In this document: positions 41,932-53,765 of the stretch, piece by piece | How the letters are laid out: each line of letters begins with the position of its first letter | Position numbering within the stretch: the first letter of the stretch is position 1 | Source of the DNA: Pseudorhodobacter antarcticus | GTDB lineage: Bacteria > Pseudomonadota > Alphaproteobacteria > Rhodobacterales > Rhodobacteraceae | Assembly (NCBI GenBank): GCA_945862465.1 | Contig: CAMAYO010000004.1 | Span: 1-64,000 of the forward strand | DNA length: 64,000 nt | Direction: 5' to 3' | Notes under the pieces: generated by a model | What the model was told of the DNA's origin: nothing | The model's input: the letters and a program-made list of their open reading frames with translations, nothing else | Database searches by the model: none | Position numbers and translations under genes: made by a program

Positions 41932-43134
41932 ATGAAAAAACTGCTGCTCGCTACGGCTGCAACCGCGCTCTGCGCTTCCGTTGCCTCGGCCGAAGACGTG
42001 AAACTGGGGATCTTGATCGGCTTTACTGGCCCGATCGAATCTTTGACAGGCCACATGGCCAATGCCGCTGAAGCCGCTATGGCCGAAGTGAACGCCTCGG
42101 GCAAAGCGCTGAATGGCTGGACATTTACGTCCGTGCGCGGCGACTCGACCTGCGTTGACGCAGCTGCAGCCCAAACCGCTGCTGAAAAAATGGTCACGTC
42201 TGATGCAGTCAAAGGCATCATCGGCGGCGACTGCTCTGGCGTGACTGGAGCTGTCTTGCAAAACGTTGCCCGTCCGAACGGCATCGTGATGGTGTCGCCC
42301 TCGGCCACCTCGCCCGCTTTGTCGACCGCTGAAGATGACGGCCTGTTCTTCCGCACCGCTCCGTCGGATGCGCGCGAAGGCGAAGTTATGGCTGACATCC
42401 TGAAGGAACATGGCGTGACCTCGATCGCGCTGACCTATTCCAACAGCGACTACGGCAAGGGTCTGGCTGACGCGATTGCAACATCTTTCGCAGCCGTTGG
42501 TGGCACCGTGACCATCAACATCCCGCACGAAGACGGCAAGTCTGACTATTCGGCCGAAGTGGCTTCGTTGGCAGCAGCTGGCGGCGATCTGCTGGTTGTG
42601 GCCGGCTATCTGGACCAGGGCGGCAAGGGCATCATCCAAGCCTCGCTCGACACCGGCGCCTTCTCGAAGTTCGGTCTGCCTGGCGGTATGGTTGGCGACA
42701 GCCTGCCCTTGGCCATTGGCCCGGCTTTGGACGGTTCGTATGGCCAAGTTGCACAGTCTGACTCGGCTGGTGCGACTGTTTTGGCTGACATGGGTAAGGC
42801 AGCTGCCACCGCCTATGACGCAACATCGCCCTACACCATGGAAAGCTATGACGCAGCCGCGCTGATCATGCTGGCTATGCAGGCTGCCAACTCGACCGAC
42901 TCCAAGGTCTATGCTGCCAAGATCATGGAAATCGCCAATGGTCCGGCTGATGGCTCGGGCGAAAAGATCCTTCCCGGCCAACTGGCCCACGGGATGGAAC
43001 TGGTCGCTGCTGGCAAAGCCATCGACTATGATGGCGCGTCGGGCGTGACTTTGGTGGGCGCTGGCGAATCCGCTGGCCGCTACAAAGAGTTCGAAATCAA
43101 AGCTGGCAAGTACGAAACCATCAAGTTCCGTTGA
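41932..43134 (+). CDS. Liv-type ABC transporter substrate-binding protein
   Basis: Signal peptide MKKLLLATAATALCASVASA; KLGILIGFTGPIESLTGHMANAAEAAMAEVNASGKALNGW. Confidence 0.93.
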   Translation: MKKLLLATAATALCASVASAEDVKLGILIGFTGPIESLTGHMANAAEAAMAEVNASGKALNGWTFTSVRGDSTCVDAAAAQTAAEKMVTSDAVKGIIGGDCSGVTGAVLQNVARPNGIVMVSPSATSPALSTAEDDGLFFRTAPSDAREGEVMADILKEHGVTSIALTYSNSDYGKGLADAIATSFAAVGGTVTINIPHEDGKSDYSAEVASLAAAGGDLLVVAGYLDQGGKGIIQASLDTGAFSKFGLPGGMVGDSLPLAIGPALDGSYGQVAQSDSAGATVLADMGKAAATAYDATSPYTMESYDAAALIMLAMQAANSTDSKVYAAKIMEIANGPADGSGEKILPGQLAHGMELVAAGKAIDYDGASGVTLVGAGESAGRYKEFEIKAGKYETIKFR

Positions 43135-43241: not shown

Positions 43242-44024
43242 ATGATCGTCGTTGAAGACCTTCACCGTCATTTTGGCGCATTTCGCGCCGTAGATGGCGC
43301 ATCGCTGGAAATTGCCACGGGGTCGATTACAGGCCTGATCGGGCCGAATGGCGCGGGCAAGACCACGCTGTTTAACGTGATCGCGGGTCGGTTAAAGCCC
43401 ACCTCTGGCCGTGTGATGATGGACGGGCAAGATATTAGCGGCCTTGCGCCGCATGAGCTGTTCGCCAAAGGCTTGCTGCGCACCTTTCAGATTGCCCATG
43501 AATTCGCCTCGATGACCGTGCGCGAGAATTTGATGATGGTGCCGGCAAATCAATCAGGCGAAAAACTGTGGAACACCTGGTTCCGGCGGGGTTTGATTGC
43601 CCAAGAAGAAGCGGCCCTGCGTAAGAAAGCTGATGAAGTTCTTGAATTCTTAACGATTTCCCACATTGCCGACGAAAAGGCGGGCAACATTTCGGGCGGG
43701 CAGAAAAAGCTTGTCGAACTGGGCCGCACCATGATGGTGGATGCCAAAGTGGTGTTCTTGGATGAAGTGGGTGCCGGCGTGAACCGCACGCTTTTGAAGA
43801 CCATTGGCGATGCCATTGTGCGCCTGAACAAAGAGCGCGGCTATACATTCTGCGTTATCGAACACGATATGGATTTTATAGCGCGGCTTTGTGATCCGGT
43901 GATCGTGATGGCCGAAGGCAAAGTTTTGGCTAAGGGCACAGTTGATCAGGTCAAGAACGACGAGCGAGTGATTGAAGCCTATCTGGGCACCGGTTTGAAA
44001 AACAAGGTGCTGGCACATGACTGA
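43242..44024 (+). CDS. Liv-type ABC transporter ATP-binding protein (LivG-like)
   Basis: Walker A GPNGAGKTTLFNVI; signature NISGGQKKLVELGRTM; CVIEHDMDFI. Confidence 0.94.
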   Translation: MIVVEDLHRHFGAFRAVDGASLEIATGSITGLIGPNGAGKTTLFNVIAGRLKPTSGRVMMDGQDISGLAPHELFAKGLLRTFQIAHEFASMTVRENLMMVPANQSGEKLWNTWFRRGLIAQEEAALRKKADEVLEFLTISHIADEKAGNISGGQKKLVELGRTMMVDAKVVFLDEVGAGVNRTLLKTIGDAIVRLNKERGYTFCVIEHDMDFIARLCDPVIVMAEGKVLAKGTVDQVKNDERVIEAYLGTGLKNKVLAHD

Positions 44025-44036
44025 CCGAAAAGCGCG

Positions 44037-44106
44037 GATTTTCTGCGAAAATCTCCTAAACCAATTTTCTGCGAAAATTGCACAGAAGAATTTTCGCAGA
44101 AAATTC
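44037..44106. repeat. Triple palindromic repeat between the two ABC ATPase genes
   Basis: gATTTTCTGCGAAAATc (44037-44053), AATTTTCTGCGAAAATT (44063-44079) and its exact reverse complement AATTTTCGCAGAAAATT (44089-44105). Confidence 0.85.
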
Positions 44107-44137
44107 GTGATCCAGACCGCTTTGATGGAGTTGCATC

Positions 44138-44848
44138 ATGTCTGACCCCTTCCTGATTGGTGCGGCGATGACGGGCGGCTATGGTGCCACCGACATTTTG
44201 CACGACTGCACCATTGCTGTTGAAAAAGGCCAGATTGCCGTCATCGTAGGCCCCAATGGCGCGGGCAAATCGACGGCGATGAAGGCCGTCTTTGGCATGC
44301 TTAACCTGCGCGGTGGATCGGTGCGCTTGAATGGCGAGGATATCACCAAACTCAGCCCGCAAGATCGCGTGGCCCGTGGCATGGCCTTTGTGCCACAGAC
44401 CCACAACATCTTCACCTCGATGACGGTGGAAGAAAACCTTGAAATGGGCGCTTTCCTGCGGCGCGATGACATCAAGGCGACGTTGGAGCAAGTTTATCAC
44501 CTGTTCCCCATCCTCAAGACAAAGCGTCACCAACCGGCCGGTGAACTCTCTGGTGGCCAACGCCAGCAAGTGGCCGTGGGCCGCGCGCTGATGACCCAGC
44601 CGCAGGTCTTGATGCTGGATGAACCCACCGCAGGCGTCAGCCCAATCGTGATGGACGAACTGTTCGATCGCATCATCGAAGTGGCGCGGTCGGGCATCTC
44701 GATCCTGATGGTCGAACAAAACGCCCGCCAAGCGCTGAACATTGCCGACAAGGGCTATGTTCTGGTGCAGGGTGCGAACCGATACACCGACACGGGGGCA
44801 GCCCTTCTGGCCGACCCCGATGTTCGCCGCAGTTTCTTGGGGGGCTAA
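44138..44848 (+). CDS. Liv-type ABC transporter ATP-binding protein (LivF-like)
   Basis: Walker A GPNGAGKSTAMKAVF; ELSGGQRQQVAVGRALM. Confidence 0.94.
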   Translation: MSDPFLIGAAMTGGYGATDILHDCTIAVEKGQIAVIVGPNGAGKSTAMKAVFGMLNLRGGSVRLNGEDITKLSPQDRVARGMAFVPQTHNIFTSMTVEENLEMGAFLRRDDIKATLEQVYHLFPILKTKRHQPAGELSGGQRQQVAVGRALMTQPQVLMLDEPTAGVSPIVMDELFDRIIEVARSGISILMVEQNARQALNIADKGYVLVQGANRYTDTGAALLADPDVRRSFLGG

Positions 44849-44851
44849 GAG

Positions 44852-45859
44852 ATGGATCTGTTGAACGCTCTGGTCGCTTTTTTGAACTTCGTCGTCATTC
44901 CTGCCGCCTCTTATGGCGCGCAACTGGCTGTGGGGGCGCTTGGGGTCACGTTGATCTTTGGCATCCTGCGGTTTTCGAACTTTGCTTGGGGCGACACCAT
45001 GGCCTTTGGGACCATGGCGGTGATTTTGCTGACCTGGTTGTTCCAAAGCTTGGGAATTTCGATTGCCCCTTTGCCCACAGCGCTTCTAGCCCTACCCTTC
45101 GCCATTCTGATCACCTCCGCCCTTTTGCTGGGCACGGACCGCGTGGTCTACCGCTTTTATCGCAAGCAAAAAGCCAAACCGATCATTCTGGTGATCGTCT
45201 CGGCGGGTGTCATGTTCGTCATGAACGGTCTTGTGCGGATCATCATTGGAACCCAAGAACAAAACTTCGCCGATGGCGGGCGCTTTTTGATCTCGGCTGG
45301 CGACTTTAAAGCTTGGACAGGCTTGGCCGAGGGCTTGGCCATCAAAGGCACCACGGCTGTCACGCTGGTGACAGCTTTGTTGACCATGGCAGCCCTGTTC
45401 TGGTTCTTGCAAAAAACCCGCACTGGCAAATCGATGCGGGCCTTTTCCGATAACGAGGATTTGGCCCTTCTGTCGGGCATAAACCCCGACCGCGTGGTGC
45501 AAGTGACTTGGGTGATCGCCGCTGCCTTGGCGGTGATTGCGGGAACGCTTTATGGCTTGGACAAAAGCTTTCGCCCCTTCATCTATTTCTCGCTGCTGTT
45601 GCCGATCTTTGCCGCAGCCGTGGTGGGCGGGCTTGGCTCGCCCATGGGGGCTGTCGCGGGGGGCTTTGTTGTGGCCTTTTCCGAGATCATCGTGACCTAT
45701 GCGTGGAAAAAAGTGATCACCTATGTCGTGCCCCAATCTTGGGCACCCGACAGTTTGATGCAGCTTTTGTCGACTGATTACAAATTCGCAGTCAGCTTTT
45801 CGATCCTGATCATCGTGCTTTTGTTCATGCCCAATGGGCTGTTCAACAAGGGGAAATGA
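44852..45859 (+). CDS. Liv-type ABC transporter permease (LivH-like)
   Basis: LAVGALGVTLIFGILRFSNFAWGDTMAFG...VVGGLGSPMGAVAGGFVVAFSE. Confidence 0.92.
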   Translation: MDLLNALVAFLNFVVIPAASYGAQLAVGALGVTLIFGILRFSNFAWGDTMAFGTMAVILLTWLFQSLGISIAPLPTALLALPFAILITSALLLGTDRVVYRFYRKQKAKPIILVIVSAGVMFVMNGLVRIIIGTQEQNFADGGRFLISAGDFKAWTGLAEGLAIKGTTAVTLVTALLTMAALFWFLQKTRTGKSMRAFSDNEDLALLSGINPDRVVQVTWVIAAALAVIAGTLYGLDKSFRPFIYFSLLLPIFAAAVVGGLGSPMGAVAGGFVVAFSEIIVTYAWKKVITYVVPQSWAPDSLMQLLSTDYKFAVSFSILIIVLLFMPNGLFNKGK

Positions 45860-45860
45860 C

Positions 45861-47162
45861 ATGAACACCCGGGCCATTTATCTTTTTGCCGGCGTGGGGA
45901 TCCTGTATGTCCTGACCGGGGTTTTGCTGTCGTGGAACGTCAGTTTGAACATCTTAATACTGGGCCTTCTCAGCGCCATCATGGCGCTGGGGGTCAATAT
46001 GCAATGGGGCTATGCGGGGCTGTTTTCAACTGGCATCGTAGGCTCGATTGCTTTGGGCGGCTTGGCGGTGGTGTTTGTATCCGGCAACCCTGTGCCCGAA
46101 GCTTTTGCTGCAGGCGGATGGCAAGCGATCAGCGGTTTGGCTGTGGCCGTGGCGGGCATCGCCGCCGCCGTTGCCGCTTGGACCTATATGCCCGCCGGCC
46201 GTGCGCGCAATCTGGCGGTGGCTGTGATCTTGATCGGCGGCTTTTTCCTCTATCGCGGCATTTTTGACCCCGCTGTCGAACGGATCGAGGCGTTTGACCC
46301 TGCCACCCACGGCAATGTTGGCGGTTTTGGGCTGAACTCAATCTGGGCTTGGCCTGTGGGCGGGGTTTTTGCCGCCGTGGCCGCTTGGGCCATTGGCAAA
46401 ATCGCTTTGGGCTTGCGCGAGGATTACTTGGCCATCGCCACCCTTGGCATCGCCGAAATCGTCATCACCGCGATCAAATCCGAAGACTGGATGTCGCGCG
46501 GCGTGAAAAACTTGGTGGGTCTGCCCCGCCCTTGGCCTGTGCCTTACGAAGTGGATATGCAGGCTGACCCCGGCTTTTTGGCCTTTTGCGCCAATTGGGG
46601 CCTGAACCCAACCACAACATCAACCTTGGCCGTCAAGGGCATTTACATCGTGATGTTCGCCATTGTTCTTAGCCTTTTGATCTGGCTGCTGCAACGCGCG
46701 CTCAACTCGCCTTGGGGCCGCATGATGCGCGCCATTCGCGACAACGAGGTCTCTGCCGCCGCCATGGGCAAAGACGTCAAGCGCCAGCATTTGATCATCT
46801 TCATCCTCGGTTCTGCCGTCGTGGGCATGTCAGGCGCCATGTATGTGTCGATGTTGGGCCAGTTGGTGCCGGGGGAATATACCCCGCTGCGCTTTACCTT
46901 CCTGATCTGGATCATGGTTATCGTCGGCGGGTCAGGTAACAACTGGGGCTCGGTTCTGGGCGGTTTGCTGGTGGGCTGGCTGTGGCTGATCGTTGATAAT
47001 GCAGGGCCATTGATCATGGGCGCTGTCACGGCGGGCATGGCCGATGGGGCGCTGAAATCGCACTTGGTAGATGTGGCCCCGCAACTGCGCCTGCTGACCC
47101 TTGGCGTGGCGCTGCTGTTGGTGCTGCGCTTTAGCCCGCGCGGCTTGCTGCCAGAAAAGTAA
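45861..47162 (+). CDS. Liv-type ABC transporter permease (LivM-like)
   Basis: NILILGLLSAIMALGVNMQWGYAGLFSTG...GLREDYLAIATLGIAEIV. Confidence 0.92.
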   Translation: MNTRAIYLFAGVGILYVLTGVLLSWNVSLNILILGLLSAIMALGVNMQWGYAGLFSTGIVGSIALGGLAVVFVSGNPVPEAFAAGGWQAISGLAVAVAGIAAAVAAWTYMPAGRARNLAVAVILIGGFFLYRGIFDPAVERIEAFDPATHGNVGGFGLNSIWAWPVGGVFAAVAAWAIGKIALGLREDYLAIATLGIAEIVITAIKSEDWMSRGVKNLVGLPRPWPVPYEVDMQADPGFLAFCANWGLNPTTTSTLAVKGIYIVMFAIVLSLLIWLLQRALNSPWGRMMRAIRDNEVSAAAMGKDVKRQHLIIFILGSAVVGMSGAMYVSMLGQLVPGEYTPLRFTFLIWIMVIVGGSGNNWGSVLGGLLVGWLWLIVDNAGPLIMGAVTAGMADGALKSHLVDVAPQLRLLTLGVALLLVLRFSPRGLLPEK

Positions 47163-47301: not shown

Positions 47302-49728
47302 ATGGTCATGAAATCCCATACACGCGTGGTGGTTATAGGCGGCGGTGTTGTCGGCTGCTCAGTTCTGTATCACCTGACCAAGCTGGGCTGGTCGGATGTG
47401 ACCTTGATTGAACGCTCAGACCTGACCTCTGGCTCGACTTGGCACGCCGCTGGCGGGTTTCATACAATCAACGGCGACACCAATATGGCGGCGCTGCAAG
47501 GCTATACGATCCGCCTGTACAAAGAGCTTGAGGCGATCACAGGCATGTCCTGCGGCTTGCACCATGTGGGCGGTGTGACGCTGGCCGATAACGAGGCACG
47601 CTTTGAGCAACTGAAAGCCGAACGCGCCAAGCACCGCTATATGGGGCTGGATACGGAAATTCTCTCTCCCGAAGAAATCTCGAAACTCACCGACGGGCTG
47701 GTGAACACCAAAGGCATCTTGGGCGGTCTTTACGACCCGCTGGATGGCCACCTTGATCCGTCGGGCACAACCCATGCCTATGCCAAAGCCGCGCGCATGG
47801 GTGGGGCAGAGATTATCTTGCACAACCGCGTGCTGGAAACCAATCCCACCAAAGACGGTTGGGAAGTTGTAACCGAAAAAGGCACGATCACCTGTGAACA
47901 CCTGGTCAACGCCGGTGGTCTTTGGGCGCGCGAAGTGGGGGCCATGGCGGGCGTTTACCTGCCGCTTCTGCCCATGGCGCACCAATATATCGTCACCGAC
48001 GATATCCCCGAAATCATGGACATTCTGAAAACCGGCCGCGAATTCCCCCATGTCATGGATCCGGGTGGCGAGTTCTACCTGCGCCAAGAAGGTCGGGGCA
48101 TGTGCATCGGCTTTTATGAAAAGCCCTGCGAGCCGTGGTCGGTTGACGGCACACCGTGGAACTTTGGCCATGAATTGCTGAACGAGCAATTCGACAAGAT
48201 CGAAGACTCGGTGAACTTTGCCTATCGCCGCATTCCCGTGCTGGAACGTTCGGGTGTTAAGCGCGTGATCCACGGGCCGTTTACCTTTGCCCCCGATGGC
48301 AACCCGCTGATCGGCCCCGTGCCGGGTCTGCGCAACTATTGGTCGGCTTGCGCTGTTATGGCGGGCTTTAGCCAAGGGGGCGGCATGGGTCTGGCGCTTG
48401 CCCAGTGGATGATCCACGGCGAGGTGGAACGCGATCCGCGTGGCTTTGATGTGGCGCGCTTTGGCAACTGGACCTCGCCCGGTTACACCGTGCCCAAGGT
48501 GATCGAAAACTACCAAATGCGCTTCTCGGTTGGCTATCCGAACGAAGAACGCCCCGCAGCCCGCCCCTTCCGCACCACGCCGATGTATGAAGTGTTCGAC
48601 AAGATGAACGCCGTCTGGGGCCAGCAATATGGGCTGGAAGTGCCCAACTACTACGCCCTGCCGGGTGAGCCGCGCTACGAAGAACCCACGTTCAAACGCT
48701 CTAACGCGTGGGAAGCGACGCGCCAAGAGGTTGTGGCTGTGCGCGAAGGCGTGGGCATCAACGAGGTGCAGAACTTTGGCAAATATCTGGTCAAAGGGCC
48801 AAATGCCCGCGCATGGCTGGATAAGATCATGGCCGGCCGCATTCCCAAACCGGGCCGCCTGTCGCTGACCCCGATGCTGGCGCATTCGGGCAAGATCATC
48901 GGTGACTTTACCGTTTCGTGCCTGTCGGAAGGCGAATTCCAACTGACGGCTTCTTACGGCGCGCAGGGCTGGCACACCCGTTGGTTTGACCAGAATGCGA
49001 TGGACGGCGTGTCGGTGGAAAACGTCTCTGACGCGCGCTCTGGCTTCCAGATTGCAGGCCCCAAAGCGCGCGAACTTCTCTCACGCGTCACCCGTTCTGA
49101 TGTTTCAGCCGAAGCGTTCAAGTTCATGGATGTGCGCAAGATGACGGTGGGCATGGCCAATTGCTTGGTGCAGCGCGTCAGCTACACCGCTGATCTCGGC
49201 TACGAGATTTTCACTGACCATATGTCTGTCCGCCAAGTCTGGGACACGCTGAATGCCGCTGGGGCCGACCTTGGCCTGCGCGCCTTTGGCATGCGCGCCA
49301 TGATGTCGCTGCGGTTGGATAAATGGTTCGGCTCGTGGGGCCGCGAATTCTCGCCCGATTATACGCCTGCCGAAACCGGCTTGGATAAGTTCATCTCGTG
49401 GAACAAGCCCTGCGACTGGATCGGCAAAGCCGCTGCCTTGGCCGAAAAGGCCAAAGGCCCGTCACGCAAGCTGGTGCCCATCGTGATCGATGTCTCGGAT
49501 GCCGATGTGGTGGCATGGGAGCCTATCTGGCTGGACGGCGGCGTTGTCGGCTGGTGCACCTCCGGCGGCTTTAGTCACTGGACAGGCAAATCCGTCGCCC
49601 AAGGCTTTATCCCCGCCGACCGCGTAGTTGACGGCCTTGCCTTAGAAGTGGAAATCTTGGGCGAGCGCCGCCCTGCCCGCGTTCACCTTGCGCCGCTGTG
49701 GGACGATCAAGGCCGCATGCGCGCCTGA
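47302..49728 (+). CDS. Dimethylglycine/sarcosine dehydrogenase-like FAD oxidoreductase with GcvT-type C-terminus
   Basis: RVVVIGGGVVGCSVLYHLTKLGWSDVTLIERSDLTSGSTWHAAGGFHT (DAO/DMGDH) with C-terminal aminomethyltransferase-like domain. Confidence 0.9.
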   Translation: MVMKSHTRVVVIGGGVVGCSVLYHLTKLGWSDVTLIERSDLTSGSTWHAAGGFHTINGDTNMAALQGYTIRLYKELEAITGMSCGLHHVGGVTLADNEARFEQLKAERAKHRYMGLDTEILSPEEISKLTDGLVNTKGILGGLYDPLDGHLDPSGTTHAYAKAARMGGAEIILHNRVLETNPTKDGWEVVTEKGTITCEHLVNAGGLWAREVGAMAGVYLPLLPMAHQYIVTDDIPEIMDILKTGREFPHVMDPGGEFYLRQEGRGMCIGFYEKPCEPWSVDGTPWNFGHELLNEQFDKIEDSVNFAYRRIPVLERSGVKRVIHGPFTFAPDGNPLIGPVPGLRNYWSACAVMAGFSQGGGMGLALAQWMIHGEVERDPRGFDVARFGNWTSPGYTVPKVIENYQMRFSVGYPNEERPAARPFRTTPMYEVFDKMNAVWGQQYGLEVPNYYALPGEPRYEEPTFKRSNAWEATRQEVVAVREGVGINEVQNFGKYLVKGPNARAWLDKIMAGRIPKPGRLSLTPMLAHSGKIIGDFTVSCLSEGEFQLTASYGAQGWHTRWFDQNAMDGVSVENVSDARSGFQIAGPKARELLSRVTRSDVSAEAFKFMDVRKMTVGMANCLVQRVSYTADLGYEIFTDHMSVRQVWDTLNAAGADLGLRAFGMRAMMSLRLDKWFGSWGREFSPDYTPAETGLDKFISWNKPCDWIGKAAALAEKAKGPSRKLVPIVIDVSDADVVAWEPIWLDGGVVGWCTSGGFSHWTGKSVAQGFIPADRVVDGLALEVEILGERRPARVHLAPLWDDQGRMRA

Positions 49729-49808: not shown

Positions 49809-50408
49809 ATGTCAGACCTGACCATTGTGATCCCTGCTGCTGGTGCCTCGTCGCGGATGCGCGGCACTGACAAGTTGTTAACCCTGATTGACGGCGTGGC
49901 CTTGCTGCGCCGCACCGCCTTGCTGGCGCTGCAAGCCCATCCCAGCGTGATGATCACCTTGCGTGACCCTGACACGTCGCGCAATCAGGTGGTGCAAGAT
50001 TTGGCCCTTCAGATTGTCACAATCCCCGATGCCACTTCAGGCCTGTCCGCTTCGCTGCGCGGAGCGGCGGCGCAAGCCGTTGGTCGGCTGATGATCTTGC
50101 CCGCTGACATGCCCGATCTGACGGCGCAGGATCTGAGCCTGATGATCCAAGCCTCGAACGCGGCACCCGATGCGCTTATGCGCGCCACGGCAGAGGATGG
50201 CACGCTTGGCCATCCGGTGATCTTTCCGGCAGATCTACGCGCAGCCTTTGCGACCCTCAGCGGCGATCAAGGCGCGCGGCCCATATTACAGGCCCATGCG
50301 GCCCGCCTGCACACCATAGCCCTACCCGGCCACCATGCCCTGACAGATTTGGATACGCCCGAAGCTTGGGCAACTTGGACCCAGTCGCGTGCGCTTTCGG
50401 ATAGATAA
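49809..50408 (+). CDS. MobA/MocA-like nucleotidyltransferase
   Basis: LTIVIPAAGASSRMRGTDKLLTLIDGVALLRRT; ADMPDLTAQDL; GHPVIFPADLR. Confidence 0.85.
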   Translation: MSDLTIVIPAAGASSRMRGTDKLLTLIDGVALLRRTALLALQAHPSVMITLRDPDTSRNQVVQDLALQIVTIPDATSGLSASLRGAAAQAVGRLMILPADMPDLTAQDLSLMIQASNAAPDALMRATAEDGTLGHPVIFPADLRAAFATLSGDQGARPILQAHAARLHTIALPGHHALTDLDTPEAWATWTQSRALSDR

Positions 50409-50719: not shown

Positions 50720-51583
50720 ATGTTTAACACCCTGAAACGGACGCTCACTCTCGGCTCTTTGGTTTTTTTCGCTTTGTTTGCAAACCTCAGTGTCGCTCAA
50801 ACCGTTCAGGATGCTGACGCGCTTGCAGGACCGCCAGATTTGCTCGGCATTGCCGAACGTGGAAAACTGGTCGTGGCGATGACCTCTTTTGACAATGCAC
50901 CATTTTACAGTGTGAAAGACGGCCATCTGGAAGGCATCGATGTCGATTTAAGCGAAGATATCGCAGCCGCCCTTGGCGTCGAAGTTGAATTCGACCGCAC
51001 AGCCGAAACATTTAACGATGTGGTGGCCAAGGTCAAGAATGGCGAAGCCGACCTTGCCGTTTCCAAAATCAGCCGCACCAATTCGCGGGCTTTGGTTGTG
51101 GCTTTTTCCAACCCCTATGTCCGGCTCAAGAACGCGCTCATGTTCAACCGCCTGAGTTTGGCGCAAAAGTCGCAAGGCAAAGACCTTGGCGACTATGTGC
51201 GTGAATTCGACGGTAATCTCGGTGTGATTGAAAAATCATCCTTTGCGAACTTTGCCAAAACGCGGTTCCCGAATGCCAATATCATTGCCTTCAAAACTTG
51301 GGGCGAAGTGGTGGATGCCACGATTTCAGGCACAGTAGATGCCGCCTATCGAGACGAATTTGAGGTGCGCCGCATAGCCGAAGATCGCCCAGAAACCTCG
51401 ATCAGTCTGCGCACCGTGACCATCGGGGATGCACGCGATGCCATTGCGGTTGCGGTTCCATGGAACGCGCCGCGACTTTTGGCGATTGTGAACCAAGTGA
51501 TTGATGATCGCGCCACCGAACTGAATGCCGACGATATCATTGCGATGTATCGCAACTCAATCGCCGTCGAAGGTGCGCATTGA
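50720..51583 (+). CDS. Periplasmic amino-acid binding protein (SBP_bac_3 type)
   Basis: Signal peptide ending SVAQ; GKLVVAMTSFDNAPFYSVKDGHLEGIDVDLSEDIAAALGVEVEF. Confidence 0.9.
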   Translation: MFNTLKRTLTLGSLVFFALFANLSVAQTVQDADALAGPPDLLGIAERGKLVVAMTSFDNAPFYSVKDGHLEGIDVDLSEDIAAALGVEVEFDRTAETFNDVVAKVKNGEADLAVSKISRTNSRALVVAFSNPYVRLKNALMFNRLSLAQKSQGKDLGDYVREFDGNLGVIEKSSFANFAKTRFPNANIIAFKTWGEVVDATISGTVDAAYRDEFEVRRIAEDRPETSISLRTVTIGDARDAIAVAVPWNAPRLLAIVNQVIDDRATELNADDIIAMYRNSIAVEGAH

Positions 51584-51584
51584 A

Positions 51585-52910
51585 ATGATGCGATTCATCA
51601 CAAAGCTTCTGTCAAACCCGCTGTTCATTCTAGCAACCTTGGGCGCTTCGATTCTTTTTGGGGTTAAATTCCCCGACATAAGTCAATCGCTTGATCCTAT
51701 TGGCGGTTACTACATCAGCTTTCTGAAGATGATCGTATTGCCCTACCTGTTAACAACCATCACGATTGGCATTGCCAGCGTGGCGGCTGACCCTAAGGGC
51801 GCACGCTATACATGGCGCATTGTCGTGATCTATCCGCTTTCCATGATCCTTGTTGCGGCTTTGTCGGTGGGGGCTTGCTTCCTTTTGCCCCCCGCAGGCA
51901 ACACCTCTGACGGCGAGGCGATGGCGGCGTTGGGCGCCATCGTCAACAAAGAAAGCCACGGCGACCAGTCTGCCAATCGGCTTGAAGTGACTTTGTCAAA
52001 GCCAAAAGTCAGTGAAACGCAAATTGCGACGTATCCGATCATTGACCGCTTCGTGCCGAGCAACGTGTTCGAGTCGTTGTCCCAAGGTGACAGCCTGAAA
52101 GTGGTGATCTTTTGCATCATCTTTGGCGCAGCCCTTGCCCGTCAAGACGGAGCGGGCAGTTTCAGCCTGCTTGCGAATATGAAGATCGTGCAGTCCGCCT
52201 GTATCGAAGTGATCCGTTGGCTCAACCTTTTGCTGCCCATCACGCTTTTTGCCATGGTCTCGGGACAAGTGTCCAAAGTTGGCGCAGGCCCCCTGCTGTC
52301 TCTCGCCCCCTTTGTCACCGTTCAGGTGCTGACGGCCTGTGTTTTGATCCTGATCAGTGCCCTGATTATCGCCAGGTCAGCGCGCGTGTCGCCCATCGAT
52401 GCCTTTGTGAAACTGCGCGAAACGCTCATTCTGGCTGTCACCACGCGCTCTAGCTTTGCATGCATTCCGGTGGCTGCGCGTGAACTGGTTGAAAAGCTGC
52501 ACTTCAACCGCTTTGGCACCGAATTGGTGATGCCTTTGGGCACAACGATTTGCCGAATTGGGCATGTGCAATATTTTGTCATCGGCACAATCTTCGTGTC
52601 GCAGATGTATGGCGTTGACCTGACCCTGGCGCATTATGCGCTGATCATCATCACCTCGGTCGCGGCCGGCTTTGCCTCCAGCGGCGCGTCAGGCGCTTTG
52701 GGTGTTGTGATGATCAGCATCGTCACTGACGCGCTGCATCTTCCGGTCGAAGCGGCCATTGCGCTGTTCATCGCTGTTGATCCGATCATCGATGTCTTCC
52801 GCACCACAGTGCTCGTCTATGGCAACTGCGCCTTGACGGCCATTATGACACCCTTGGAAAAAGACCCTGCCCTTTGGACCAGCGAAGCCCCAGAAGCACG
52901 GGCCGCCTGA
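51585..52910 (+). CDS. Dicarboxylate/amino acid:cation symporter family (SDF/DAACS) transporter, divergent
   Basis: SDF topology; HP1-like TTRSSFACIPVAARE; TM8-like AVDPIIDVFRTTVLVYGNCALTAI. Starts 2 nt after the SBP stop. Confidence 0.9.
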   Translation: MMRFITKLLSNPLFILATLGASILFGVKFPDISQSLDPIGGYYISFLKMIVLPYLLTTITIGIASVAADPKGARYTWRIVVIYPLSMILVAALSVGACFLLPPAGNTSDGEAMAALGAIVNKESHGDQSANRLEVTLSKPKVSETQIATYPIIDRFVPSNVFESLSQGDSLKVVIFCIIFGAALARQDGAGSFSLLANMKIVQSACIEVIRWLNLLLPITLFAMVSGQVSKVGAGPLLSLAPFVTVQVLTACVLILISALIIARSARVSPIDAFVKLRETLILAVTTRSSFACIPVAARELVEKLHFNRFGTELVMPLGTTICRIGHVQYFVIGTIFVSQMYGVDLTLAHYALIIITSVAAGFASSGASGALGVVMISIVTDALHLPVEAAIALFIAVDPIIDVFRTTVLVYGNCALTAIMTPLEKDPALWTSEAPEARAA

Positions 52911-53620
52911 TGGGCGACCTTGTTGGTGTTCTAGGGGGTATGGGGCCAGCGGCCACAGTCGATTTTCTAAACAAGATCATCAGCTTGACCGAATCGCCCA
53001 ATGATCAAGGCCACCTGCCCGTGGTCGCCATGATCGACCCGCGCATTCCCGACAGGTCGGCCGCCATTCGTGGCGAAGGGCCCAGTCCGGAACCCAAACT
53101 GGTGTCATTGATCAAAAAACTCGAAGGCGCCGGCGCAGGCGTGATCGTTATCCCCTGTAACACATCGCATTACTGGTATGACGCCATGAGTGCAGCCACC
53201 TCGGTGCCGATCCTCAGCATGATCCAAGCCACCATCGAAAGCATTCAGGCCAGCGTGCCCGTTGGCGCATCGGTGGGGATCATGGCGACAGAGGGCACGA
53301 TTGGCGCGAATATCTACCAAAAGCCCCTGCTCGCTGCAGGCTATGTGCCGCAAGTGCTGGATCTGGAACGCCGTGTGAAGTTTGTCGAAGGCGGCATCCG
53401 CCGGGTAAAGGCAAGCGACATGCCACAAGGCCTGAAACTGCTTGAGGCGGGCTTGGCCCAGTTTATCGCCGAGGGCTGCACCCATGTGATTTTGGGCTGC
53501 ACCGAAGTGTCCTTGGCCTTTGCCGAAACGCTCAACCGGGCCGAGATTACGCTGCACGACAGCAACCTGATTTTGGCGCGCAAGACATTGCGCCATTTCG
53601 GGCGCACGCCGAAATACTAG
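52910..53620 (+). CDS. Aspartate/glutamate racemase family protein
   Basis: VGVLGGMGPAATVDFLNKI, IPCNTSHYW, ILGCTEVSLAF. ATG overlaps the SDF stop (TGATG). Confidence 0.93.
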   Translation: MGDLVGVLGGMGPAATVDFLNKIISLTESPNDQGHLPVVAMIDPRIPDRSAAIRGEGPSPEPKLVSLIKKLEGAGAGVIVIPCNTSHYWYDAMSAATSVPILSMIQATIESIQASVPVGASVGIMATEGTIGANIYQKPLLAAGYVPQVLDLERRVKFVEGGIRRVKASDMPQGLKLLEAGLAQFIAEGCTHVILGCTEVSLAFAETLNRAEITLHDSNLILARKTLRHFGRTPKY

Positions 53621-53681: not shown

Positions 53682-53765
53682 TGGTGCGGGCGGTCGGACT
53701 CGAACCGACACACCTTGCGATAACAGATTTTGAGTCTGTCGCGTCTACCATTCCGCCACGCCCGC
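53682..53765 (-). tRNA. tRNA-Leu (anticodon CAA)
   Basis: Reverse complement GCGGGCGTGGCGGAATGGTAGACGCGACAGACTCAAAATCTGT...GGTTCGAGTCCGACCGCCCGCACCA. Acceptor, anticodon and T arms pair, long variable arm, encoded CCA. Confidence 0.95.

Follow-up and report, generated by a model that had tools for sequence, protein, structure and literature searches.

Binding proteins of the SBP_bac_3 family usually feed ABC importers, and SDF carriers such as GltPh and the EAATs, the textbook and best-known elevator transporters, are thought to operate alone; we know of no member of the GltPh/GltTk/EAAT or DctA/GltP groups that uses a substrate-binding protein (SBP). Among secondary transporters, soluble SBPs had been known only from TRAP and TTT until TAXI-GltS of Bordetella pertussis was proposed (BP0403/GltS; PMC12344293, 2025); according to that report, the use of an SBP may depend on an elevator mechanism, an idea that additional classes would put to the test. 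Here, we analyzed a 64,000-nucleotide stretch of Pseudorhodobacter antarcticus DNA (the window) that carries an SBP_bac_3 gene directly before an SDF carrier gene. Judged from sequence, the pair resembles a two-part amino-acid importer of a kind not described so far, since catcher and carrier recur together in many bacteria and the carrier lacks the usual Na+-binding residues. This reading has a proposed precedent in the pairing of an SBP with an elevator-type secondary carrier in B. pertussis (PMC12344293), and we found no report of an SBP paired with an SDF carrier in the open-access literature.

Gene order at the locus

Three co-directional, tightly packed genes encode the SBP, the carrier and a racemase. 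The SBP stop codon is separated from the carrier start codon by a single A, a gap of 1 nt, and the carrier stop overlaps the racemase start by one base (TGATG). The locus and its surroundings comprise:

41932-43134: Liv-type binding protein, belonging to the ABC set that follows
43242-47162: branched-chain (Liv-type) ABC set, 3.6 kb upstream of the cassette with two genes between
47302-49728: dimethylglycine-dehydrogenase-like gene, upstream of the cassette
49809-50408: MobA-like NTP transferase gene, upstream of the SBP gene
50720..51583, plus strand: SBP gene (ATG 50720, TGA 51581-51583), 287 aa, secreted amino-acid-type binding protein of the SBP_bac_3 family
51585..52910, plus strand: SDF1 carrier gene (ATG 51585, TGA 52908-52910), 441 aa, SDF/DAACS elevator-type carrier of the SBP-linked subgroup
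52910..53620, plus strand: racemase gene (ATG 52910), amino-acid racemase of the Asp/Glu superfamily, over the NCBIfam CuyB cut-off
53682-53765, minus strand: tRNA-Leu, just downstream of the racemase gene

The coordinates and order that the first-pass annotation had given for the three genes proved exact to the base when the sequence was re-read, and its family calls were borne out by Pfam: SBP_bac_3 for the SBP (E=1.8e-19, 70.2 bits against a cut-off of 26.4), SDF (PF00375) for the carrier (E=9.7e-68, 229 bits against a cut-off of 27.9, covering profile positions 5-384 of 387) and Asp_Glu_race for the racemase (E=3.3e-38), which carries both catalytic Cys motifs, IPCNTSH and LGCTEV. By eye, the SBP begins with a Sec-type signal peptide. 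A scan for promoters and terminators at the locus gave results barely above those for shuffled sequence, so it is the spacing of the three genes that argues for their co-transcription.

The SBP residues R123 and D212 are invariant in 14 relatives and occupy the positions that hold the alpha-carboxylate and alpha-amino groups in HisJ/GlnH-type proteins; by this sign, the ligand would be an amino acid. No permease or ATPase gene of a polar amino-acid ABC importer lies beside the SBP gene, as the annotation had observed, and the Liv-type set upstream has its own binding protein. Elsewhere in the genome (G000; 2.92 Mb in 155 contigs, 92% complete), the polar-amino-acid permease model gave three matches over the cut-off, two on contig C16 and one on C3, and one just below it on C1, each within about 1-2 kb of its own SBP_bac_3 gene; a fourth SBP, on C18, adjoins an ABC ATPase. 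This 92% complete assembly thus holds no orphan polar-amino-acid ABC permease for the window SBP.

Recurrence and variants of the SBP-SDF pair

Starting from the carrier, we found relatives with the window carrier alone as query in named genomes (L030, L031, L032, L033 and L034) and on plasmids of Gemmobacter aquarius, Paraburkholderia sp. PGU19, P. phymatum and Cupriavidus sp. P-10, and surveyed 299 Pseudomonadota genomes with an SDF1 profile. The profile scores in these 299 genomes split cleanly, with carriers of SBP cassettes at E<1e-105, a carrier of a second, divergent type (SDF2) at 3e-67 and ordinary carriers from 1e-61 on. An SBP of the window's family adjoined 16 of the 17 SDF1-type carriers with a readable upstream flank, a count that takes in own and related loci from genomes not independent of one another, and none of the 36 ordinary SDF loci of a control set. 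Given this dependence among genomes, the Fisher value, calculated on a larger set that pooled the two search directions, is not to be taken for a probability. The sole exception, L034, is a Rhodobacteraceae MAG in which the surroundings are as in the window and the carrier is in place, but the readable stretch upstream, from the NTP-transferase gene to the carrier gene, holds no SBP. Two of the 36 ordinary loci (L113 and L115) hold near-identical carriers with the motif NMSGN, each beside a generic SBP_bac_3 gene in the opposite orientation. The pair is rare, with SDF1-type carriers occurring in 2 of 198 genomes of the window's own order.

The converse search applied SBP profiles alone to about 1,300 genomes in overlapping samples: 399 from Pseudomonadota, 337 from Alphaproteobacteria, 200 from one order, 48 from another class and 321 from a further class. 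It returned 28 distinct loci outside the window's genome: 19 with an adjacent SDF gene (7/7, 7/16, 1/1 new and 4/4 new by sample), eight with a dCache sensor and one (L058) with neither. Most of these SBP-SDF pairs are co-directional and tightly spaced. At one locus (L065/L074, genome G730), two SBPs of the window SBP's clade stand in tandem after a single SDF carrier.

The pairing is therefore found in both search directions and spans Alphaproteobacteria, Burkholderiales and other Pseudomonadota. The first-pass annotation had proposed searching genomes for SBP_bac_3 genes beside or fused to SDF genes; adjacency was found (16/17 carriers, 19/28 SBP loci), but no fusion was present among the closest carrier matches. 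Its central suggestion, that the SBP serves the SDF carrier, gains support from this two-way recurrence across classes together with the lack of an unassigned polar-amino-acid ABC permease in the genome. From sequence comparison, we consider it quite likely that the SBP and SDF1 work together in a single transport system.

The locus in the window represents one variant of a modular cassette whose modules are split over two loci in its own genome. Besides the window carrier, the genome has two SDF genes, adjacent on contig C66, where the order is SBP, SDF1, SDF2 and a convergent, two-part gene resembling a voltage-gated channel; the C66 proteins share 57% (SBP) and 53% (SDF1) identity with those of the window. 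In Gemmobacter aquarius, the genes for SBP, SDF1, racemase and SDF2 lie within 6 kb together with that of a convergent ion transporter, the order SBP-SDF1-racemase-SDF2 recurs in Paraburkholderia, Cupriavidus and genome G506, and SBP-SDF1-racemase occurs in two further genomes (G252, G458); at L124, a racemase-like gene precedes that of the SBP. The six cassette racemases tested form a single subfamily with that of the window. The annotation's inclusion of the racemase thus holds in that the gene recurs in other genomes, but it is optional, since the closest relative (L030), with a carrier 83% identical and the same surroundings, has none.

Several observations were made alongside. A 4.4 kb contig of an Akkermansiaceae MAG (L031) carries an SBP-SDF1-SDF2 set that shares about 93% identity with the copy on C66, and is probably a misbinned Rhodobacterales contig. 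In Marivivens donghaensis HF1 (L029/L033) the cassette is in decay: its SBP gene is broken across reading frames, and in-frame stops or frame breaks interrupt both the carrier and the second SDF. The channel-like gene (Ion_trans, SIGYGD filter) is convergent to SDF2 in the Rhodobacterales cassettes and lies upstream in Marivivens. Upstream of the C66 cassette, L004:10871-13174 encodes a 767-aa protein with an Erv1/Alr-like domain in a bacterium. The channel-like genes are:

L004:5225-6802: voltage-gated-channel-like gene
L047:12289-13764: voltage-gated-channel-like gene
L032:10794-12350: voltage-gated-channel-like gene

Carrier residues and a proposed mechanism

We aligned 27 SBP-linked SDF1 carriers (two of them from contig ends), nine SDF2 and 35 ordinary SDFs, using GltPh numbering. 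The conserved NMDGT motif, which marks characterized SDF members although profile PF00375 does not require it, is absent from the window carrier and reads CRIGH instead. Its relevant segments are:

52551..52565, plus strand: altered NMDGT motif of SDF1, reading CRIGH, residues 323-327 (by alignment)
52554-52556, plus strand: R324 of SDF1, aligned to the GltPh M311 position
52779..52826, plus strand: TM8 substrate/ion segment of SDF1, DPIIDVFRTTVLVYGN, residues 399-414

N310 and N401 are both kept in all 35 ordinary SDFs versus 0/27 SDF1 carriers. Position 311 is Arg in 23 of the 27 SDF1 and in all nine SDF2, versus Met or Leu in every ordinary SDF (35/35), and the carrier at the G730 tandem locus is one without this Arg. 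Ser or Thr occupies position 93 in 35/35 ordinary carriers versus 7/27 SDF1. When we scored the Na+ and H+ signatures published in PMC12668577, the full Na+ set was present in 14 and the H+ set in 13 of the 35 ordinary SDFs; neither occurred in any of the 27 linked carriers. In the tree, a fully supported branch separates ordinary SDFs from the SDF1 and SDF2 rows; several branches are long, and the grouping of SDF1 versus SDF2 is tentative.

In the related carrier GltTk, N313, D315 and N405 (GltPh N310, D312 and N401) are Na+ ligands or coupling residues, and M314 (GltPh M311) moves in to become a ligand of the Na2 site (PMC5110648). CaiT and ApcT, which are unrelated to SDF carriers, have an Arg or Lys at the Na2 position and are Na+-independent (PMC5941172). 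Because the Na+ ligands are replaced and an Arg stands at position 311, the SBP-linked carriers are, by analogy with CaiT and ApcT, probably not Na+-coupled in the manner of GltPh. The loss of NMDGT and of other Na+ ligands in carriers linked to an SBP appears to be new here.

TM8 of the window carrier keeps the GltPh residues D390, D394, R397 and T398, with N401 changed to Leu and D405 to Asn. D394 and R397 are determinants of acidic-substrate specificity (PMC12668577), and only 11 of the 27 linked carriers keep both, so that specificity for acidic substrates may not extend to the whole family. For the window system we nonetheless favor, on balance, an acidic amino acid as the predicted substrate, with aspartate, glutamate and cysteate each possible. 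AlphaFold2 models of the SBP and of the carrier, built from four sequences per alignment, had a mean pLDDT of about 40, too low for use.

Our preferred reading, to which we assign a probability of roughly 0.6, is that SBP and SDF carrier are two parts of a single secondary importer that depends on its binding protein, is probably Na+-independent and takes up an acidic amino acid in D or L form, which the racemase would pass on to metabolism. In the periplasm, the secreted SBP would catch the acidic amino acid, dicarboxylic or sulfonic, and pass it to the elevator carrier SDF1; unlike GltPh-type carriers, SDF1 would bring it into the cell uncoupled from Na+, with the Arg that replaces Met311 perhaps substituting for the ion. 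Inside the cell, the racemase would interconvert the D and L forms, making the imported enantiomer usable. Gene order, recurrence, and the residues conserved and lost are the observations from which we infer physical coupling, direction, substrate class and coupling ion. Against a single importer stand the L034 carrier without an SBP, the same-clade SBPs at dCache sensors, the lack of SBP-SDF fusions, and the small share of linked carriers with both D394 and R397.

A more elaborate version is tentative and, in our view, rather improbable: an ABC-type amino-acid SBP would feed a hetero-oligomer of a transporting SDF1 and a degenerate SDF2 with a regulatory or structural role, and the fixed Arg would replace Na+, so that the SBP and not the Na+ gradient would provide affinity and direction. 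Most substrate-binding residues are gone from SDF2, with the loss of D394 and R397 strongest in Rhodobacterales.

Alternative readings and known systems

The SBP could instead sense a ligand and thereby gate or report on the carrier or on a separate receptor, with the SDFs acting as transceptors or alone and the SBP not needed for delivery. The eight dCache loci speak for this idea: in small-genome Alphaproteobacteria (L059, L062, L064 and L066-L070), the gene directly after an SBP of the window SBP's clade encodes a dCache-HAMP protein. Pfam assigns dCache in the two sensor proteins tested, and by eye the reading frame runs on, where the locus reaches, into class III cyclase motifs of the FSDI(E/Q)GFT type, which suggests SBP-fed cyclic-nucleotide signaling at these loci. 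The eroded substrate site of SDF2 likewise fits a non-transporting subunit. However, the window SDF1 retains D394, R397 and T398, the cassette racemase points to substrate metabolism, and the Rhodobacterales and Burkholderiales cassettes examined contain no signaling domain; we regard a sensor as unlikely.

A single importer could also be specific for L/D-cysteate and lead to sulfonate breakdown via CuyB and CuyA, CuyB being the enzyme that interconverts L- and D-cysteate ahead of CuyA (PMC11382572). In support of this, the window racemase scores 223.1 bits against the CuyB (cysteate racemase) NCBIfam model (cut-off 190), and all cassette racemases tested exceed the cut-off (196-223 bits). Yet the model is not specific to the cassette: a CuyB-type racemase at L014:179-910, directly upstream of an ordinary NMDGT-type SDF without an SBP (L014:1003-2376), scores higher, at 244.7 bits. 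Moreover, none of the five PALP-family enzymes found in the 92% complete genome is CuyA-like; they resemble threonine/hydroxyaspartate lyases, CysK, TrpB and ThrC. Given the missing CuyA and the reach of the CuyB model beyond the cassette, we rejected cysteate as a firm substrate and hold this narrower reading to be distinctly improbable. Least probable is that the SBP serves an ABC importer from another locus, its position next to the SDF gene reflecting co-regulation only, for although SBP_bac_3 proteins are normally ABC feeders and the nearest solved relatives of the window SBP are ABC binding proteins, the genome's polar-amino-acid permeases each have their own SBP and the pair turns up in several classes without an ABC permease being seen among or next to the cassette genes.

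The single importer that we favor most resembles TAXI-GltS (PMC12344293), in which an SBP gene is again closely linked to the gene of a stand-alone secondary carrier for amino acids, an elevator mechanism is proposed and the theme is acidic amino acids. The components differ, a TAXI-type SBP with the ESS-family carrier GltS there and an SBP_bac_3 (ABC-type) protein with an SDF carrier here, and whereas GltS is a Na+ symporter for which fusions exist, the linked SDFs have lost their Na+ ligands and we found no fusion. TRAP and TTT (DctP/TctC with membrane parts) share SBP-dependent secondary import, but their membrane proteins and SBP families are unrelated and none of their components occurs in the cassette; Pfam finds only SBP_bac_3 and SDF in the transporter genes of the window cassette, and no DctQM, TctAB, GltS, DctP, TctC or TAXI SBP. 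With GltPh/GltTk/EAAT and DctA/GltP (SDF, DAACS) the window carrier shares PF00375 and the retained residues D390, D394, R397 and T398, and differs in its changed NMDGT, N401 and S/T93 positions and its Arg at 311. An intermediate clade of SDF carriers in Bacillota binds and exchanges aspartate without Na+, as shown by ancestral reconstruction (PMC12668577); that ancestor keeps the Na+-site residues that SBP-linked carriers replace, and no SBP is mentioned there. An SBP-linked SDF subgroup without Na+ ligands would put the elevator requirement to the test in the elevator fold that is understood best, and could reveal how the coupling of a carrier changes once an SBP takes over affinity.
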